From NCBI RefSeq assembly GCF_037031285.1, contig NZ_JAYEZO010000001.1:1736001-1800000 (forward strand): a DNA stretch of 64,000 nucleotides. Direction: 5' to 3'. The position numbers were made by a program, and so were the translations under genes. Each line of letters starts with the position of its first letter. Position 1 is the first letter of the stretch. Of this stretch, positions 43,848-51,838 are shown piece after piece. The notes under the pieces were generated by a model that worked only from the letters and a program-made list of their open reading frames with translations, ran no database searches and was not told the DNA's origin. The DNA is from Halobellus sp. LT62 (GTDB lineage Archaea; Halobacteriota; Halobacteria; Halobacteriales; Haloferacaceae).

Positions 43848-44738
43848 CTACGGGGCCCGATAGAGCAAGTCGTACTGGTGAGCGCTGTAAAATAACGTTC
43901 CACCGGCGAGTTGTCGCCGTCGCGTCGACAGCCACGAGTCGAACTGGCCGGGTGCGTGTTCGGTGGTCGCGAGCGCTCGCTCGACGAACCGAAGGATTTG
44001 AGAGAGGAAGTACCGCTCGTCCGCAACGTATCGCCCCTTACGCGGGCGTACGATCCAGTCCGAACTCGCCGCCGCGAGAAGGTCACCCTCGCCTTGGCCG
44101 AACCGGTGAGCCAAGTGCCGCCCCGCGCGGACGTCCCGTCCCGGCGCAGTACCCATCGCCGCGTGGTACGCCCGCTCGACTGCCTCGTCGGCCGGGTGGT
44201 CCGGTTGGAAGATCGTTCCGCCATCGAACGTCAGCGGGAGGTACGCCAGTCCACCGGACGTGAGCGCGGACTCGATTGCAGAGGTGAGTCGCGAAAGCGG
44301 GACCAGATCCGCGAACGACTGCGCGACCACGAGGTCGACCCCAGCCGACGATTCGAGGGCATCGAGCGCGTCACCAACCCCGAAGGAGACGCCGAGATCC
44401 CCGACAACGAAATCGCGGCCCCCAGAGACCTTCCGGGACGTCGAACCGTGTGCGCTGGGGTCCTCGGAAACTCGGTGACCGTCCCAGCGGAGCGCTGCCG
44501 GACGAGCGCGGCGAGCGAAAGAGACGATTCGTTCGTCGGTGTCGATTCCACGATACTGTCCCGCGTCGACGCCCCACGAGAGCAGTTGTGGGACAGTCAC
44601 GCCGGTCCCACAACCCGCCTCGACGATCAGCGGTTCCTCGGGGAGCGCCGCGAGCAGTCGGTCGCGGACGCGTGGCGATCGGGCACGATCATCGACGGAT
44701 CGCTTCGATTCCAAGTACCGCGGACGTGCGTGCTTCAT
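43848..44738 (-). CDS. Class I SAM-dependent methyltransferase
   Basis: 296 residues from MKHARPRYLESKRSVDDRAR. Motif I is LIVEAGCGTGVTVPQLLSWG, followed by the acidic residue of motif II in YRGIDTDERIVSF, then LDLVVAQSFADLVPL. The C-terminal part (YLPLTFDGGTIFQP, GRYVADERYF) may define the acceptor. The ATG overlaps the stop of the pterin-synthase-like gene (ATGA); the ORF is open further upstream but that would eat into the neighbour. Last gene of a three-gene operon whose product is unknown. Confidence 0.85.
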   Translation of the reverse strand: MKHARPRYLESKRSVDDRARSPRVRDRLLAALPEEPLIVEAGCGTGVTVPQLLSWGVDAGQYRGIDTDERIVSFARRARPAALRWDGHRVSEDPSAHGSTSRKVSGGRDFVVGDLGVSFGVGDALDALESSAGVDLVVAQSFADLVPLSRLTSAIESALTSGGLAYLPLTFDGGTIFQPDHPADEAVERAYHAAMGTAPGRDVRAGRHLAHRFGQGEGDLLAAASSDWIVRPRKGRYVADERYFLSQILRFVERALATTEHAPGQFDSWLSTRRRQLAGGTLFYSAHQYDLLYRAP

Positions 44739-45142
44739 TCGTTCAGGCGACGAGTGTGGCTCGCCCACGAGACCTCGTCCTCCCATATCCGGACGGTCAG
44801 CCCCGTTGGTGTCGGGTCGACTAAGCGCTCTTCGACACGGTCACCGAACAGGCGAGCGAAATGTTCGATACTGGGGTTCAGCCCCTCGAACTCGGGGAGA
44901 TCGTTGAGAAGGGCATCCCGATAGTGGCCTTCGAGCACGTCCAGAACGCCTTCGACTGCATCGATATCGACAAGATAGCCGAAATCGCCGAGATGGGGGC
45001 CCGTGAAGTGGAGTTCAACCGTGAAGTGATGGCTGTGAACGTCGCCCTCTGGTCCCGGATCGGGAACGGTGAGAAAGTGCTGTGCGACGAAATCTCTGGT
45101 GACGGACAGTTCGTACGCGTCGGTGGTGTCAGTTCCGGACAT
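44735..45142 (-). CDS. 6-pyruvoyl-tetrahydropterin/6-carboxytetrahydropterin synthase-like protein
   Basis: 135 residues, family length. His residues in FVAQHFL and HSHHFTVELHF correspond to the three zinc ligands; LVDIDAVEGVLDVLEGH and NPSIEHFARLF match the rest of the fold (conserved Glu after Asn-Pro). The catalytic Cys expected just before the His-x-His motif is not present: the sequence there is EGDVHSHHF. It may therefore catalyse a different reaction on a pterin-like or other triphosphate substrate, or only bind it. It lies between the BchC-like dehydrogenase and the methyltransferase with four-base overlap to the latter. Confidence 0.85.
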   Translation of the reverse strand: MSGTDTTDAYELSVTRDFVAQHFLTVPDPGPEGDVHSHHFTVELHFTGPHLGDFGYLVDIDAVEGVLDVLEGHYRDALLNDLPEFEGLNPSIEHFARLFGDRVEERLVDPTPTGLTVRIWEDEVSWASHTRRLNE

Positions 45143-45160
45143 AGTATCGGTCGTATCGTC

Positions 45161-46195
45161 TCAGTCGTAGGTGAGGAGGACTTGGAGGACACCGTCGCCG
45201 CGGTCATCGAGTAGTCGATACGCCTCGGACGCCTCGGCGAACGGAATTCGATGGGTGATGAGCGACGCGACGTCCACCGCGGCGAGGCGTTCCAGTGCCA
45301 CCGACGAGCGACGGGATTTCGTCCACCGGCCCCGAGTCTCCGGTGCGAGCGTGCTCACTTGGCTCGATTCCACGGAGATCCGATCGCGATGGAACGACGT
45401 GCCGAGATCGAGGGTCGCCGGTTTCTCGCCGTACCACGAGCCGACGATGACGCGGCCGTCGTAGCCCGCAGCGGCGACGGCGGTGTCGAGAGTCTGCGGT
45501 CGCCCGGAAAGCTCATACACCAGGTCGGCACCGCTTCGAGGAGAACCGTCGGGGGCTGATCCACCCGCACCGCCGATATCGAGAACCGTGTTCAGTTCCT
45601 CCGGAGCGACGGCGACGTCTGCGCCCATCGCTTCGGCCCGGTCGCGGCGTTCGGCGATCGGTTCGACGGCAATGAGCCGTCCGAGCGGAAACGACGAGAG
45701 AATCCCGATCGTGCAGAGGCCGACCACGCCCGCGCCGAACACGACGACGTCCTCGCCGATCCGGGGTCGTCCGTCGAGCACGAGCGAGGTGGCCGTTTCG
45801 ACCGACGGAAAGACCGCCATCGTCGACGGGGCGATCCCGTCGGGGACGGGGATCGCGTTCTCCGGAGCCACCGAAACGTGCGTCTCGTGGGGCGCGAACG
45901 CGAACACCGACCGCCCGAGCCACTCGTCGTCGACCGCCTCCCCGACAGCCACGACGTCGCCCACCGCAGCGTACCCGTACCGGAGCGGGAAAGAGAGGTC
46001 TCCGTCGAGCGTCTCGAGCGTCTCGTCGGCCGGGAGTTCCGCAGGTGCCTCTCCTCGGTAGATGAGCAGTTCAGTTCCGGCACTGACGCCGGAGATGTTT
46101 GTTTCGACGAGCAGCTCTTCGGGGCCGAAATCCACGGTCGTCCGCCTGATCGCCGTCTCGTGCGGAGCGGTGAAGTACAGCGATCTTCTGTTCAT
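45161..46195 (-). CDS. BchC-like medium-chain dehydrogenase lacking zinc cysteines
   Basis: 344 residues from MNRRSLYFTAPHETAIRRTT. The N-terminal half has ISGVSAGTELLIYRGEAP and FPLRYGYAAVGDVVAVG, close in pattern to BchC (bacteriochlorophyllide dehydrogenase) rather than to alcohol dehydrogenases: the usual GxCGSD cysteine and the four structural-zinc cysteines are absent. The Rossmann motif is VVVFGAGVVGLCTIGIL. The ending SSQVSTLAPETRGRW is typical of this subgroup. It is first in the three-gene operon and probably reduces or oxidises a ring substituent; the substrate is not known. The ORF is open far upstream, but this ATG fits the family start. Confidence 0.83.
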   Translation of the reverse strand: MNRRSLYFTAPHETAIRRTTVDFGPEELLVETNISGVSAGTELLIYRGEAPAELPADETLETLDGDLSFPLRYGYAAVGDVVAVGEAVDDEWLGRSVFAFAPHETHVSVAPENAIPVPDGIAPSTMAVFPSVETATSLVLDGRPRIGEDVVVFGAGVVGLCTIGILSSFPLGRLIAVEPIAERRDRAEAMGADVAVAPEELNTVLDIGGAGGSAPDGSPRSGADLVYELSGRPQTLDTAVAAAGYDGRVIVGSWYGEKPATLDLGTSFHRDRISVESSQVSTLAPETRGRWTKSRRSSVALERLAAVDVASLITHRIPFAEASEAYRLLDDRGDGVLQVLLTYD

Positions 46196-46830: not shown

Positions 46831-47634
46831 TTATTCACTCCACACTGCGTCGACAGACGCTCGCTCGTGGATGATGCGGTCGAGTGCGGAAATGACGGCC
46901 GTGGGGTCCTCGGTCTTCCAGATCGATCGGCCGATCATAATTCCGCGTGCACCACTCGCTATCGCTCCGTCGACGTCGGTGAGCATCGCTGCGGTCGTCC
47001 CAGACTTCGGGCCGCCGAGGATCATCACCGGGACCGGTGAGTGTTCGACGATCGGTTCGAACGTTTCAACGTCTCCGGTGTACGGGAGTTTCAGGATGTC
47101 AGCGCCGTATTCCCAAGCCATACGGGCGGCCCGTGCCACGTACTCCGGATGCGTTTCCAGTTCAGCGGGGACCCGTTCGCCCCACATCACCGGTTCGACG
47201 ACGAGCGGGACGTCCGTCCCACGGAGCTGTTCGGCCATTTCGGCGATGTACGAGAGGTTCCGTCGGAACAGCTGTCGGTCGTCGCGACCGAACACGAGCA
47301 CCACTTTGACGCCGACCGGCTCAAGTTCCAACAGTAGTTCGGGATCGAATCCGGGAGTCCACACGTCGTGGCCGTCGTCGAACCCCGGACGCGTGGAGTT
47401 TGTCACGATATCTGCCGTCACGACGACGTCGACGCCGGCGTTCGCGATCAGTTCTCGATAGCGACGCGCGAAGTGTGGACCGACGAGAATCGCGTCCGGG
47501 TCGCCGTCCAAGACGGACCGAAGCGTCGCTTCCGGATCGCGGAACCCCTCCGTGGCACCGAGACTGAGGCCGTGATCGATGGCCGTGACGAGCGCGTTTC
47601 CCGATGCGGTGTCTAACAAGTCGTAATCGTCCAT
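46831..47634 (-). CDS. Class I aldolase, DhnA/LsrF-type (FBA class I-like)
   Basis: 267 residues. The start TASGNALVTAIDHGLSLG and the Schiff-base segment ADILKLPYTGD are characteristic of the archaeal-type class I aldolase group (DhnA, LsrF); GGPKSGTTAAML and ARGIMIGRSIWK form the phosphate-binding region. It cleaves a phosphorylated keto-sugar, probably the product of the PfkB kinase encoded 59 bp upstream. The family handles fructose, tagatose, sulfofructose and autoinducer-type phosphates, so the sugar cannot be named. The ATG chosen is internal to a longer ORF (47691), because the conserved region starts right after it. Confidence 0.87.
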   Translation of the reverse strand: MDDYDLLDTASGNALVTAIDHGLSLGATEGFRDPEATLRSVLDGDPDAILVGPHFARRYRELIANAGVDVVVTADIVTNSTRPGFDDGHDVWTPGFDPELLLELEPVGVKVVLVFGRDDRQLFRRNLSYIAEMAEQLRGTDVPLVVEPVMWGERVPAELETHPEYVARAARMAWEYGADILKLPYTGDVETFEPIVEHSPVPVMILGGPKSGTTAAMLTDVDGAIASGARGIMIGRSIWKTEDPTAVISALDRIIHERASVDAVWSE

Positions 47635-47693
47635 TGTCGCGTCCTCGGTCTGAGTGAGTCGACGACCGACAAAGTGTTTGGGGTTCGGCAACC

Positions 47694-48845
47694 TCAGACC
47701 GAGAGCAGTTCCTCGTATTCGTGTACGACATCGACGATCTCGTCGAAGGCGGGCGGGGAGCCGGTCCGGACGAAGTGGTTCGCGACGGCGTTACCCAGCA
47801 CCAGAGAGGCCGGATCGTCGAGGCCCTGCAGCAGCCCGAGCGAAAGGCCGGCGTTGAAGTGATCGCCCGCGCTCGTCGTTATTTCGGGTTCGGCCACTTT
47901 CGGGACGTCAACGCGAGCGGTCCCGGCGTCCGAAACGGAGACCGAAAAGTCCACGTTGTGACCGACGAAGCGCGTCACGTCCACGTGGTCGTACACAGTC
48001 GTTACCGCCGAGGTAAACGATCGCCCCGGGTCGTCGGTCGTCAGCATATCCGCCAGCGCGAGCGTCTCGACGCGGTTGGCGCTCACCGTGAGCGACGTGA
48101 CCGAGGCGAGGCGCTCCAACGCCTCGATTCCGGGCTGAATCTGTTCGTCGGGTAGCTGACGGATGTCACCGGGATCGAACAGGACCTCTTCGGGCGGGTC
48201 CGAGAGCATCGGCCAGACTTCCTCGCGGATTCCGTCGATGATTGCTGGAAGTCGGGGCATCACGGTCCAATATCCGATACCGAAGAGATCGGTTCCGTCG
48301 ATGCGCTCGGCGAGAGCGGTGGGTGAAATACGCTCGGAAAACGACTCCCAGTCGAACCGGAGATAACTCCCCGGTTCGATGAGCATACACTTCCCGTCGT
48401 CGAACTCCACGGCGTGTGTTTCGCCGGGCTCACCGATCGAAACCATCTCGTACTCGCCGAACTCCGTTTGGAACGTCTCGCGCGGCGGCGTCCCGAACGT
48501 CCCGACCAACGTCGGATCGTATCCGATGCCGCCGTAAAACCGAGTCAAGTGGGACGTATGGCCACCCAATCGGGTCCCGTCGTTGACCCATTCGATCGCG
48601 ATCGAGCTGTTTTCATCGGCCGAGGCGCGAAAGCGGTCGGCGAGCGAATCGAGCGTCCGGATCGGCGTGTACGACTCCGGATCGCGGCGCGTGTCGACCA
48701 TCCGCTGGACGGAGTCGACGAACCCATCGAAGCCGAAGACGACGTTCCCGCCGCCGACGGCGTCTGGTAGCTGTCGCTGGCAGGCGGGTATCGCCTCCGC
48801 TGTCGTAACGTCCGGCTCGAAATCAGTCGTATCCGAAGTCGTCAT
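47694..48845 (-). CDS. PfkB family carbohydrate kinase
   Basis: 383 residues. The C-terminal signature TSAGDHFNAGLSLGLLQG supplies the anion hole and catalytic Asp of PfkB kinases, and FGFDGFVDSVQRMV with RLGGHTSHLTRFYGG forms the sugar-binding side. It is longer and more divergent than standard members, and the second signature has SAGD in place of GAGD. It phosphorylates a sugar or keto-deoxy acid with ATP. Pairs with the class I aldolase downstream, a kinase-aldolase arrangement also used for tagatose, inositol-derived, sulfoquinovose-derived and keto-deoxy sugars. Confidence 0.88.
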   Translation of the reverse strand: MTTSDTTDFEPDVTTAEAIPACQRQLPDAVGGGNVVFGFDGFVDSVQRMVDTRRDPESYTPIRTLDSLADRFRASADENSSIAIEWVNDGTRLGGHTSHLTRFYGGIGYDPTLVGTFGTPPRETFQTEFGEYEMVSIGEPGETHAVEFDDGKCMLIEPGSYLRFDWESFSERISPTALAERIDGTDLFGIGYWTVMPRLPAIIDGIREEVWPMLSDPPEEVLFDPGDIRQLPDEQIQPGIEALERLASVTSLTVSANRVETLALADMLTTDDPGRSFTSAVTTVYDHVDVTRFVGHNVDFSVSVSDAGTARVDVPKVAEPEITTSAGDHFNAGLSLGLLQGLDDPASLVLGNAVANHFVRTGSPPAFDEIVDVVHEYEELLSV

Positions 48846-48894
48846 AGCTCATCGAACATTGTTTGGATGGTAGTTACCCGAACGGATACGTGAG

Positions 48895-49344
48895 TCAGTT
48901 GTCGCGGACGAACGTGACGGGGCACGGCGCAGACAGCAGTACCTCCTGCGCTGTCGAGCCGAAGACGGCCTTTCCGGTGGGCGAGCGTCGACGACCGCCG
49001 ACAACGAGTAGATCGGAGCCGAGATCGTCAGCCAACTGGACGATCTGTTCGCCGCGAGATCCCACGTTGCCGCGGATCTCGTAAGCGATCCCCTCCTCTT
49101 CGAACACCTCGGCGATCGATCGAGTCGCCGAGTGGCGCTCGGCCACGCGGTCCGGCGTGGCGTCCGACGAATCCGCTAAATTGAGCCGATCGATCGTGGA
49201 ATCGTACTGTTTCTCGCTGAAAACGTGAGCCAACACGACCGTCGCTCCCGCCGGACCGGCGATATCGACGACCAGTTGTGCCATTCGCTCCGCGCGATCG
49301 GAGTCTTCAGCACCCACTGCGAGTAACACTGAGTTCAGCGCCAT
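48895..49344 (-). CDS. Universal stress protein (UspA family)
   Basis: 149 residues. Starts MALNSVLLAVGAEDS; ATP-binding motif near the end, VVGGRRRSPTGKAVFGSTAQEVL (matching the G-x2-G-x9-G-S/T pattern), then CPVTFVRDN. Binds ATP and helps cells under stress; often found within sugar and transport operons of haloarchaea. It has its own strong TATA box (49371-49380). Confidence 0.9.
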   Translation of the reverse strand: MALNSVLLAVGAEDSDRAERMAQLVVDIAGPAGATVVLAHVFSEKQYDSTIDRLNLADSSDATPDRVAERHSATRSIAEVFEEEGIAYEIRGNVGSRGEQIVQLADDLGSDLLVVGGRRRSPTGKAVFGSTAQEVLLSAPCPVTFVRDN

Positions 49345-49370
49345 ACCCCCACCTCAGAGCGGAGCGCCTT

Positions 49371-49380
49371 ATATTTATAT
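49371..49380 (-). promoter_or_regulatory. TATA box of the universal stress protein gene
   Basis: On the minus strand ATATAAATAT, centred about 31 bp before the ATG at 49344. A near-classic archaeal TATA box giving a leaderless or almost leaderless mRNA. Confidence 0.6.
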
Positions 49381-49488
49381 CCCGTACCGACGGTTTCGGC
49401 GGTCGTGAATCCGCGATCGACGAGTGAGGCGGCTACCAAACGAGGCAGAGAGATCGGCCGCCTCCGCTTCGATCCACAGGACTCCGTT

Positions 49489-50523
49489 CTACACTTCTCC
49501 GACCGAGATCATTCCCTTGATCACGGTGGGTTCCATCGCGCGGTCGAACGCGTCGTCGATGTTCGAGAGCGACGCTTCGAAATCGACCATATCGGCGACG
49601 TCGACGACGTCGTCGGCGAGAAGGTCGATGGCTGCACCGTAGGTGTTCGCATAGCGGAACGAACCGTGGACGTCCAGTTCGTTGTCGATCACGTCGAGGA
49701 CGTCGAACGGGACTTCCGCCTCGTCGGCCAACCCGACGAGCACGACCGTTCCACCGCGTCGGACCCCGTCAAGCGTCGACCTGATCGACGGCTCAGCGCC
49801 GGACGCCTCGACGACGACGTCGGCACCGACACCGTCGGTGTACTCGTCGACGGCGTCGTCGAGGCTCGTCTCCGCGACGTTTACCGCGCGGTCGATTCCG
49901 CGATCGCGGGCGTATTCGAGCTTTTCGGGGACGATATCCGTGATGAGCACGTCCGTCGCTCCCGCGGCGCGAGCGGCGTCGGCGACCAGCAGGCCGATCG
50001 GCCCCGCACCGGTGACGAGGACCGTATCGCCAGTCGCGACGTTTCCACGGCGAACGGCGTGGATCCCGACCGAGAGGGGCTCGCACAGGGCACCTTCGAG
50101 CGTCGACACGCTCTCGGGGAGCTTGTAGGCGAAATCCGCCGGCCACGCGACGTACTCGGCGAACGCCCCGTCGTGCGGTGGCGTCGCCATAAACTCCACC
50201 GCCTCGCACAGGTGGTACTCCCCGCGTTTGCAGTGTGCGCAGCGGCGGCACGGAACGCCGGGTTCCAACGCGACGCGATCGCCGGGTTCGAGGTCCGAGA
50301 CGTCGTCGCCGACGGCGATAACCTCTCCGGCGCTCTCGTGGCCGAGGATCAGCGGGTCCTCGACGACGTAGTCGCCGATCCGACCGTGGTTGTAGTAGTG
50401 CACGTCCGACCCGCAGATTCCGACCTCCCGAATCGCGACGAGTACGTCGGTCGGTCCCGGTTCCGGCCGGTCGCGATCGCGGAGTTCGAAACTCGTCGGT
50501 TCGACTAAGACAGCGGTCTGCAT
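49489..50523 (-). CDS. Sorbitol/xylitol-type zinc-dependent polyol dehydrogenase
   Basis: 344 residues. VGICGSDVHYYNHGRIG with catalytic Cys, LILGHESAG with His and Glu, VPCRRCAHCKRGEYHLCE with the structural zinc cysteines, LCEPLSVGIHAV, and TGAGPIGLLVADAARAAGA for NAD binding. The Tyr-Tyr-x-His-Gly stretch is typical of sorbitol, xylitol and L-iditol dehydrogenases. It interconverts a sugar alcohol and a ketose. Lies 79 bp downstream of the galactonate-dehydratase-like gene; the TTTTAGT sequence about 28 bp before the ATG may be its TATA box. Confidence 0.9.
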   Translation of the reverse strand: MQTAVLVEPTSFELRDRDRPEPGPTDVLVAIREVGICGSDVHYYNHGRIGDYVVEDPLILGHESAGEVIAVGDDVSDLEPGDRVALEPGVPCRRCAHCKRGEYHLCEAVEFMATPPHDGAFAEYVAWPADFAYKLPESVSTLEGALCEPLSVGIHAVRRGNVATGDTVLVTGAGPIGLLVADAARAAGATDVLITDIVPEKLEYARDRGIDRAVNVAETSLDDAVDEYTDGVGADVVVEASGAEPSIRSTLDGVRRGGTVVLVGLADEAEVPFDVLDVIDNELDVHGSFRYANTYGAAIDLLADDVVDVADMVDFEASLSNIDDAFDRAMEPTVIKGMISVGEV

Positions 50524-50602
50524 ATCGATCGGTACGATAATCGGTTACTAAAATCTACGGGTCGGCACGGCGGTACGCCCGCTTCAGTTTCGGAAGACGA
50601 CG

Positions 50603-51754
50603 TCACCACTCGGCAACGCTGCCGTCCTCGTGGTGCCAGACCGGGTTGTACCAGTTGACCTCCGCTTCGGCCTGTTTCCGGACGCGGTCCTCGTCGATTT
50701 CGATCCCGAGTCCCGGACCGGTCGGCCGTTCGACGTACCCGTTTCGGAACTCGAACGTCGCCGGGTCTTCGAGCAACGACAGCCGTTGGCTCTCGTCCGG
50801 GGTTTCGAGATTGAGATCTTGCTCTTGCATCACGACGTTCGGGGAGGAGAACCCGACCTGGAGACTGGCAGCGAACGCGATCGGGCCGAGCGGGCAGTGG
50901 GGGATGACGGCGACGTCGAACGTTTCCGCGAGTGCGGCCACCCTCCGAAGTTCGCTGATTCCGCCGACGTGTGTCACGTCCGGTTGGATAACCGATACCG
51001 CGTCCTCGACGAACAGTCGCTTGAAATCGTACCGCGAGTAGAACCGCTCGCCGGTCGCGATGGGGATCGTGGTCCGGTCGCTGATCGCGTCGAACCCGTC
51101 CGCGTGTTCCGGAAGCAGCGGCTGGTCGATGAACATCAGATCGTACGGTTCGAGCCGCCGGACGAGTTCGGCGGCCATCGGCTTGGAGACTCTCCCGTGG
51201 AAGTCGACGCCGAGGAACGCGTCGTCACCGACGGCGTCTCTGACGGCGGCCACCCGATCGATCGATCGATCCACGACCGCCGGCGTTTCGAGAAACCGGA
51301 ACTCCCGGGCGAAGTTGAGCTTGAAGGCGCGGTAGCCGTTCTCGTAGTCCTCGCGCGCTGACGTCGCGATCGTCTCGGGGTCCTCACCGCCGAGCCACTG
51401 GTAGACGAGCATCCGATCCCGGACATACCCGCCCAGTAGATCGTAGATCGGCGTGTCGTAGTAGCGGCCCTTGACGTCCCAGAGGGCTTGGTCGATTCCC
51501 GCGAGCGCGCTCATCAGGATGGGCCCACCGCGGAAATACCCGCTCTGATAGAGCTTCCGCCACTGGTACTCGATTCGAAGCGGGTCTGTCCCCAGCAGAT
51601 ACCCCTCGATCAGCTCTTCGACCGCCGTCCGGACGGTGTCGAGTCGTCCCTGAATGATCGGCTCTCCCCATCCGACGATCCCCTCGTCGGTCTCGAGTTT
51701 GAGCAATAGCCACCGTGGGGGAACGGCGAACAGTTCGTATCCGGTGATTTGCAT
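50603..51754 (-). CDS. Enolase-superfamily sugar-acid dehydratase, D-galactonate dehydratase-like
   Basis: 383 residues. It follows DgoD closely: MQITGYELFAVPPRWLLLKL, GGPILMSALAGIDQALWDVK, AFLGVDFHGRVSKP (Asp ligand and catalytic His), FIDQPLLPEHADGF, ATGERFYSRYDFKRL (Glu ligand) and PHCPLGPIAFAASLQ (second catalytic His). DgoD removes water from D-galactonate to give 2-keto-3-deoxygalactonate. One difference stands out: the second metal ligand, normally the first Glu of the EEP/EQP triad, is Asp here (IDQP). Starts at the ATG at 51754; divergent from the SDR gene. Confidence 0.88.
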   Translation of the reverse strand: MQITGYELFAVPPRWLLLKLETDEGIVGWGEPIIQGRLDTVRTAVEELIEGYLLGTDPLRIEYQWRKLYQSGYFRGGPILMSALAGIDQALWDVKGRYYDTPIYDLLGGYVRDRMLVYQWLGGEDPETIATSAREDYENGYRAFKLNFAREFRFLETPAVVDRSIDRVAAVRDAVGDDAFLGVDFHGRVSKPMAAELVRRLEPYDLMFIDQPLLPEHADGFDAISDRTTIPIATGERFYSRYDFKRLFVEDAVSVIQPDVTHVGGISELRRVAALAETFDVAVIPHCPLGPIAFAASLQVGFSSPNVVMQEQDLNLETPDESQRLSLLEDPATFEFRNGYVERPTGPGLGIEIDEDRVRKQAEAEVNWYNPVWHHEDGSVAEW

Positions 51755-51838
51755 ACACGTGATCACTCCGAGCATCCACTTGAATGGGCGGGCTCTTGCG
51801 ACTCGATAGAGAAATCGATGCGTCGCGGCGTCGCATAG

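Follow-up and report, generated by a model that had tools for sequence, protein, structure and literature searches.

A conserved dehydrogenase, tunnelling-fold protein and methyltransferase operon in Halobellus: core of a probable pathway from a riboflavin precursor to a pterin-type compound

Three adjacent genes of Halobellus sp. LT62, encoding a zinc-free dehydrogenase (ADH), a PTPS-like tunnelling-fold protein and a SAM methyltransferase (MT), constitute the core of a larger gene cluster present in Halobacteria and, among the bacteria, in Chloroflexota, Bacteroidota/Rhodothermota and Myxococcota; Actinobacteria have a sister form. We consider it probable that these genes form the core of a pathway, conserved and horizontally spread, which would convert DARoPP (2,5-diamino-6-ribosylamino-4(3H)-pyrimidinone 5'-phosphate), a ring-opened intermediate of riboflavin synthesis, into a glycosylated, methylated and possibly phosphodiester- or lipid-linked pterin-type compound. 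The gene set occurs in over half of the haloarchaea sampled and in many bacteria, and public records wrongly label its key protein as a queuosine enzyme. Should the proposal prove true, GTP-derived metabolism gains a branch that starts from a riboflavin precursor instead of dihydroneopterin, and the question of the PTPS-IV subfamily becomes tractable by genetics in haloarchaea that can be cultured.

The window analysed here is a stretch of 64,000 nucleotides, in which the trio (Table 1) corresponds to C1:1779848-1782195 of the 3.23 Mb assembly. The three open reading frames are placed as the preliminary description had them, all on one strand and tightly packed. The ATGA at 44738-44735 is common to the PTPS-like and MT genes, and this overlap makes 44738 the most likely start of the MT, rather than 44786, the limit of its open frame. 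The nearest relative of the PTPS-like protein is that of Halobellus rufus (84%). Adjoining the trio, positions 46831-51775 of the window hold a sugar-catabolism block composed of a DeoC/LacD-type aldolase, a ketohexokinase, a universal stress protein, a zinc sugar dehydrogenase and an enolase-superfamily enzyme.

Table 1. Features of the three-gene operon, in positions of the window
Feature	Position	Strand	Remarks
ADH, zinc-free medium-chain dehydrogenase, BchC-like, 344 aa	45161..46195	-	first operon gene; PF00107 E 1.5e-11
Gap from ADH stop to PTPS start, 18 nt	45143..45160		consistent with a single operon
PTPS-like tunnelling-fold protein, 135 aa, Glu for catalytic Cys	44735..45142	-	PF01242 E 2.2e-23
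Codon of PTPS-like E32	45047..45049	-	QueD catalytic-Cys position; invariant in 110/110
Codons of PTPS-like Y74-R75-D76 (YRD)	44915..44923	-	replace the QueD catalytic Asp-His region
MT, class I SAM methyltransferase, 296 aa	43848..44738	-	PF13649 E 2.5e-5, below cut-off; ATGA overlap

The PTPS-like protein had been described as keeping the zinc histidines and lacking the catalytic Cys, and the family alignment confirmed both points. The zinc-type residues H22, H36 and H38 and the ring-anchoring E121 are kept, E32 aligns exactly to the catalytic Cys of E. coli QueD (4ntm), four residues before the HGH, and the DH that precedes LND in QueD is replaced by RD. In 110 homologous loci, among which some species may count twice, E32, D76, N80 and H38 are invariant; such changes, shared by the whole family, are fixed features and not the decay of one gene. 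H36 is replaced by Asn in 8 of the 110 loci, and the proteins of Streptomyces and Microbacterium have Ala for the second His, so the full zinc site is not universal. The Asn is seen in one Chloroflexota branch (L132, L134-L136, L138-L142), which presents NSH for HSH and has lost a predicted zinc ligand. The AlphaFold model is a confident PTPS fold (pLDDT 91.8) and its best solved match is SCO6650 (3d7j, TM 0.79), followed by QueD. The protein presents ExxxHSH in place of the CxxxHGH motif of QueD, and the conserved Cys of the PTPS-II (biopterin) motif CxxxxxHGH is absent from its motif region. PTPS-III enzymes (folate, Plasmodium type) likewise have Glu instead of Cys as the likely base, but their Glu stands three residues before the His (ExxHGH), whereas that of the PTPS-like protein stands at -4, the Cys position, with G or N at -3.

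The best NCBIfam match of the ADH is the BchC model TIGR01202, with a score of 67.5 bits, far under the cut-off of 291.25, and identity with BchC was rejected on this basis. The ADH shares the MDR fold and the NAD(P)-binding domain with BchC and the zinc-binding MDR dehydrogenases, but differs from them by the absence of both the catalytic and the structural zinc ligands. In the alignment with the ordinary zinc dehydrogenase encoded at 49489-50523 of the window, ICGSD became SAGTE and GHE became GYA, and the structural-zinc Cys loop was not found. This loss, noticed before in the single protein as missing zinc cysteines, concerns both sites and holds throughout the family, in which the motifs GTE, GY, GSWYG and FHR are nearly invariant (68 relatives). 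The MT has a class I fold (pLDDT 91.2) and conserved Y-L-x2-K-x3-D-x-R and HQ-x-D motifs; sequence and fold searches for a clue to its substrate returned generic class I enzymes only. The claim that each of the three proteins departs from its relatives at the active site thus stands for the ADH and the PTPS-like protein; the MT has an ordinary fold and no telling relative.

Relatives of the PTPS-like protein are present in 171 of 292 Halobacteria genomes and strong matches in 21 of 301 Chloroflexota genomes; the named loci outside these groups include Salinibacter, other Bacteroidota and Myxococcota. We compared the gene order in the 77 trio-type loci with enough flanking DNA: the ADH gene is immediately upstream of the PTPS gene in 61, the MT gene downstream in 61, and both flank it in 49, which establishes the trio as a unit conserved in the same order. 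Since the PTPS-like proteins are only 50-60% alike across phyla, this order has been kept far beyond chance. A GT4 glycosyltransferase gene directly follows the PTPS gene in 51 of the 77 loci, including most of those outside the Halobellus group. It is absent between the PTPS and MT genes in the Halobellus type, where glycosylation may therefore differ. The trio of Halobellus limi is on a plasmid, and several other copies of the PTPS-like gene are also plasmid-borne.

Neighbour clustering and Pfam provided the partners of the trio in the larger cluster: a GTP cyclohydrolase (GCH), II or III; either a RibD reductase of archaeal type that lacks the deaminase (RibD_C) or a creatininase-type protein; the GT4; a CDP-alcohol phosphatidyltransferase (CDP-alcohol PT); a Gfo/Idh-AKR fusion; the small membrane protein DUF7475; and, in Chloroflexota, LPG_TM proteins. 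In bacterial clusters, GCH II occurs with the RibD_C reductase, either fused or adjacent; at least one of the two is beside the PTPS gene in 27 bacterial loci, of which 21 have both. In haloarchaea, GCH III is at most 8 kb from the PTPS gene in 20 of 43 loci, a linkage that could be incidental because riboflavin synthesis requires GCH III in any case. The cluster of Streptomyces fungicidicus comprises the CDP-alcohol PT, ADH, PTPS, GT4, MT, creatininase and ribA genes, that of Microbacterium the CDP-alcohol PT, ADH, PTPS, GT4, MT, LPG_TM and RibD genes, and Haloarcula halophila presents GT4, Gfo/Idh, CDP-alcohol PT, GCH IIa, ADH, PTPS and MT contiguously. A FolB gene is present in 4 of 5 sister PTPS-IV loci of Chloroflexota; in the PTPS-IV clusters L143, L144, L145 and L147 of this phylum, the FolB (dihydroneopterin aldolase) gene is flanked by those of a methyltransferase and of the RibD_C reductase. 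In the window, neither GCH II nor RibD_C is adjacent to the trio. The earlier remark that the usual partner enzymes are not adjacent is thus correct for this locus and not for the family, in which the cyclohydrolases are regular neighbours elsewhere. An undescribed pterin-related pathway, as first proposed, is still the best reading of what has proved to be a conserved unit, but the trio is only part of it, and the sister subfamily PTPS-IV, with its GCH II/RibD_C neighbourhood, is already in the literature.

In Halobellus sp. LT62 two separate loci probably share the pathway. The second, at a distance of about 118 kb from the trio, holds the Gfo/Idh-AKR fusion gene (C1:1900988-1903000), whose end is overlapped by a CDP-alcohol PT gene with an intact DGxxAR motif (the pair spans C1:1900988-1903850), and DUF7475 is upstream. 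In other haloarchaea these three genes directly adjoin the trio. The fusion occurs in 75 of 292 Halobacteria, and all 75 have the trio PTPS (hypergeometric 5e-22, 23 genera, uncorrected for phylogeny); shared ancestry inflates this 75/75 figure. GCH III and the archaeal reductase (ArfC) are encoded elsewhere in this genome.

Three lineages appear to arrive at one intermediate through different genes, which argues fairly strongly for DARoPP as the common precursor. GTP would be opened to DARoPP by GCH III, which makes a formylated intermediate, and a formamide hydrolase in haloarchaea, by GCH II in Chloroflexota and Bacteroidota, and by a Tyr-to-Met GCH II with a creatininase-type deformylase in Streptomyces. 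All 21 Chloroflexota/Bacteroidota cluster loci read retain the catalytic Tyr of GCH II, and none of them has a creatininase match. In S. fungicidicus, GCH II (L152:15645-17138) presents a Met instead of this Tyr (LRAMALQ) and a creatininase-family gene is beside it, a pairing read from this one cluster. SCO6655, with the same Tyr-to-Met change, reportedly stops at the formylated product. The creatininase family includes formamide hydrolases which turn the formylated product of GCH III into DARoPP (PMC9478397).

The reductase provides the second part of the precursor argument. The RibD_C protein of the bacterial clusters has no deaminase domain, scores 158 bits with the archaeal model versus 112 with the bacterial RibD model, and has 2azn and 6p8c as best solved RibD-type matches. 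The position of the Lys found in housekeeping RibD (a single sequence read) is occupied by S, T or C in 21 of 21 cluster proteins read and by N in the archaeal reductase of this genome. Judged from these sequences, the bacterial cluster reductase seems to act before deamination, a type which archaea already own. Reduction at this stage would keep the 2-amino group recognised by the PTPS fold. Salinibacter-type genomes have a separate full RibD, whereas ten of the Chloroflexota carriers tested, several of them MAGs, yielded no full bacterial RibD in addition to the cluster reductase. A role in riboflavin synthesis itself is disfavoured by the deaminase-free reductase and by these ten carriers.

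From DARoPP, the pathway that we propose would continue with the RibD_C/ArfC-type reductase acting before any deamination, so that the guanine-type 2-amino group stays. The PTPS-like protein would then bind the guanine-type ring via E121 and, with its His (zinc) site and E32/D76 in acid-base roles, either remodel the side chain or close the pterin ring. A ribityl chain, if the reductase makes it, blocks the usual pterin closure from ribose; the PTPS-like step would then involve other chemistry, or the reductase would act elsewhere. The zinc-free NAD(P) dehydrogenase would oxidise or reduce the side chain, the GT4 would add a sugar and the SAM enzyme a methyl group, and finally the CDP-alcohol PT and the Gfo/Idh-AKR sugar oxidoreductase would link the product to a lipid or a polyol via a phosphodiester. 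Our data underlie the gene membership and the precursor argument, while the chemistry from the PTPS-like step onwards and the product itself are what we infer. The PTPS fold and the FolB genes beside sister clusters give moderate support to the pterin character of the product; its glycosylation and methylation would follow from the class of the enzymes, and the enzyme class and the intact DGxxAR motif hint weakly at a lipid or phosphodiester linkage. That the trio makes a reduced, methylated ring compound, as was suggested at the outset, is plausible. More tentatively, the product may represent a novel class of glycosylated pterins with a lipid or phosphodiester linkage. A single pathway, common to haloarchaea, Salinibacter-type bacteria, Chloroflexota and Actinobacteria, would make them, its tunnelling-fold enzyme using a Glu as base and acting on a ring-opened GTP intermediate of the riboflavin route and not on the product of GCH I; we regard this wider proposal as possible rather than probable.

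The product could also be a soluble methylated and glycosylated, perhaps phosphodiester, tetrahydropterin, as in cyanobacteria or like the charged pterins of halobacteria, with a CDP-alcohol enzyme that is not lipid-directed. We hold this to be unlikely but deserving of serious attention, since it accounts for the association of the PTPS-like protein with GT4 and MT and for FolB in the sister loci. Charged halopterins were reported for halobacteria in the older literature; a literature search for halopterin names found no paper. To our knowledge, the known pterin glycosides start with GCH I, whereas the cluster neighbours are GCH II or III, and the recurrence of membrane-protein neighbours (CDP-alcohol PT, LPG_TM, DUF7475) also speaks against a soluble compound. 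Pterin glycosides as such are known bacterial products (PMC13259868).

It is rather improbable that the product stays a pyrimidine, i.e., a ribityl- or ribosyl-diaminopyrimidinone nucleoside, azapteridine or lumazine type, and never becomes a pterin. Reduction of the ribosyl chain would indeed block pterin closure, and the pseudoiodinine and toxoflavin pathways have recruited GCH II and RibD from riboflavin synthesis, along with methyltransferases (PMC9911603). Their clusters, however, contain no PTPS-like protein, GT4 or CDP-alcohol PT, and the present cluster differs from them by its archaeal-type, deaminase-free reductase. The neighbourhoods showed none of the remaining psd/tox enzyme types, and the PTPS-like and FolB folds otherwise bind pterins.

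Coming back to the pterin-type pathway that we favour, its key protein is nearest to PTPS-IV (COG0720; SCO6650, PDB 3d7j) in sequence, in fold and in the tree. This subfamily, already named, has GCH II (PF00925) and RibD_C (PF01872) in its neighbourhood (PMC5445326) and its function is not established in the literature (PMC5445326, PMC5041015); our literature search found no paper naming SCO6650 and no description of the full cluster. Both families lack the catalytic Cys, have YR-type residues in place of Asp-His, and share ADH, GT4, GCH II, RibD_C and CDP-alcohol PT neighbours. They differ by their signatures, FGPA-T/Q with HGH or HGA for PTPS-IV and GPE-G/N with HSH and YRD for the PTPS-like family (FGPAQ is not found in the latter and only GP is in common), and the Chloroflexota members of PTPS-IV, unlike the trio, are accompanied by another methyltransferase and FolB. 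In the PTPS tree, which contains long branches and was rooted for drawing only, the PTPS-like family is a clade of its own (100/100) beside PTPS-IV, in a joint group supported at 100/97. We read it as a sister clade, with its own signature, of an already named subfamily. The haloarchaeal proteins nest beside those of Bacteroidota/Rhodothermota (99/94), inside the bacterial spread, which suggests an acquisition by transfer from bacteria. PTPS-IV relatives on Streptomyces plasmids (L154, L160) stand alone; with two Streptomyces genomes having such a relative and no cluster, membership in PTPS-IV alone is no proof of the pathway. An F420-related role, mentioned as unpublished for PTPS-IV (PMC5041015), is very improbable here: F420 genes do occur in many carriers (haloarchaea, Chloroflexota), but only 171 of the 292 Halobacteria have the PTPS, and CofE is missing in 8 of 18 carrier genomes, namely 6 of 6 Bacteroidota/Rhodothermota and 2 of 2 Myxococcota tested, including a Salinibacter isolate genome (most others are MAGs). 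These eight carriers led us to disfavour the role.

Scarcely credible, finally, is a divergent QueD feeding archaeosine synthesis, which has for it that the genome contains no second PF01242 protein, and against it the replaced catalytic triad, the separation from QueD in the tree (100/97), the many haloarchaea that carry a second PTPS besides the PTPS-like protein, and the absence of QueC, and with it of the rest of the pathway, from this genome, QueC being absent from most Halobellus too. QueD (PTPS-I) shares the tunnelling fold, the His ligands and the ring-anchoring Glu with the PTPS-like family, but CxxxHGH, the catalytic Asp-His and the QueC/QueE context are its own, and the grouping with ordinary QueD enzymes that would have contradicted the first description was not seen. 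Motif, tree and QueC absence together disfavoured a QueD or queuosine role. Neither QueC nor QueE was seen in the PTPS-like neighbourhoods, and the contrast locus contained one true QueD, accompanied by QueE and FolE. Both QueD and QueC are missing from this genome and from most of the Halobellus sampled, so that either their archaeosine precursors must come from salvage or they lack the modification. Public records label the PTPS-like proteins of L152, L155, L156 and L157 as 6-carboxytetrahydropterin synthase with a queuosine GO term, a label which the missing catalytic residues leave unsupported.
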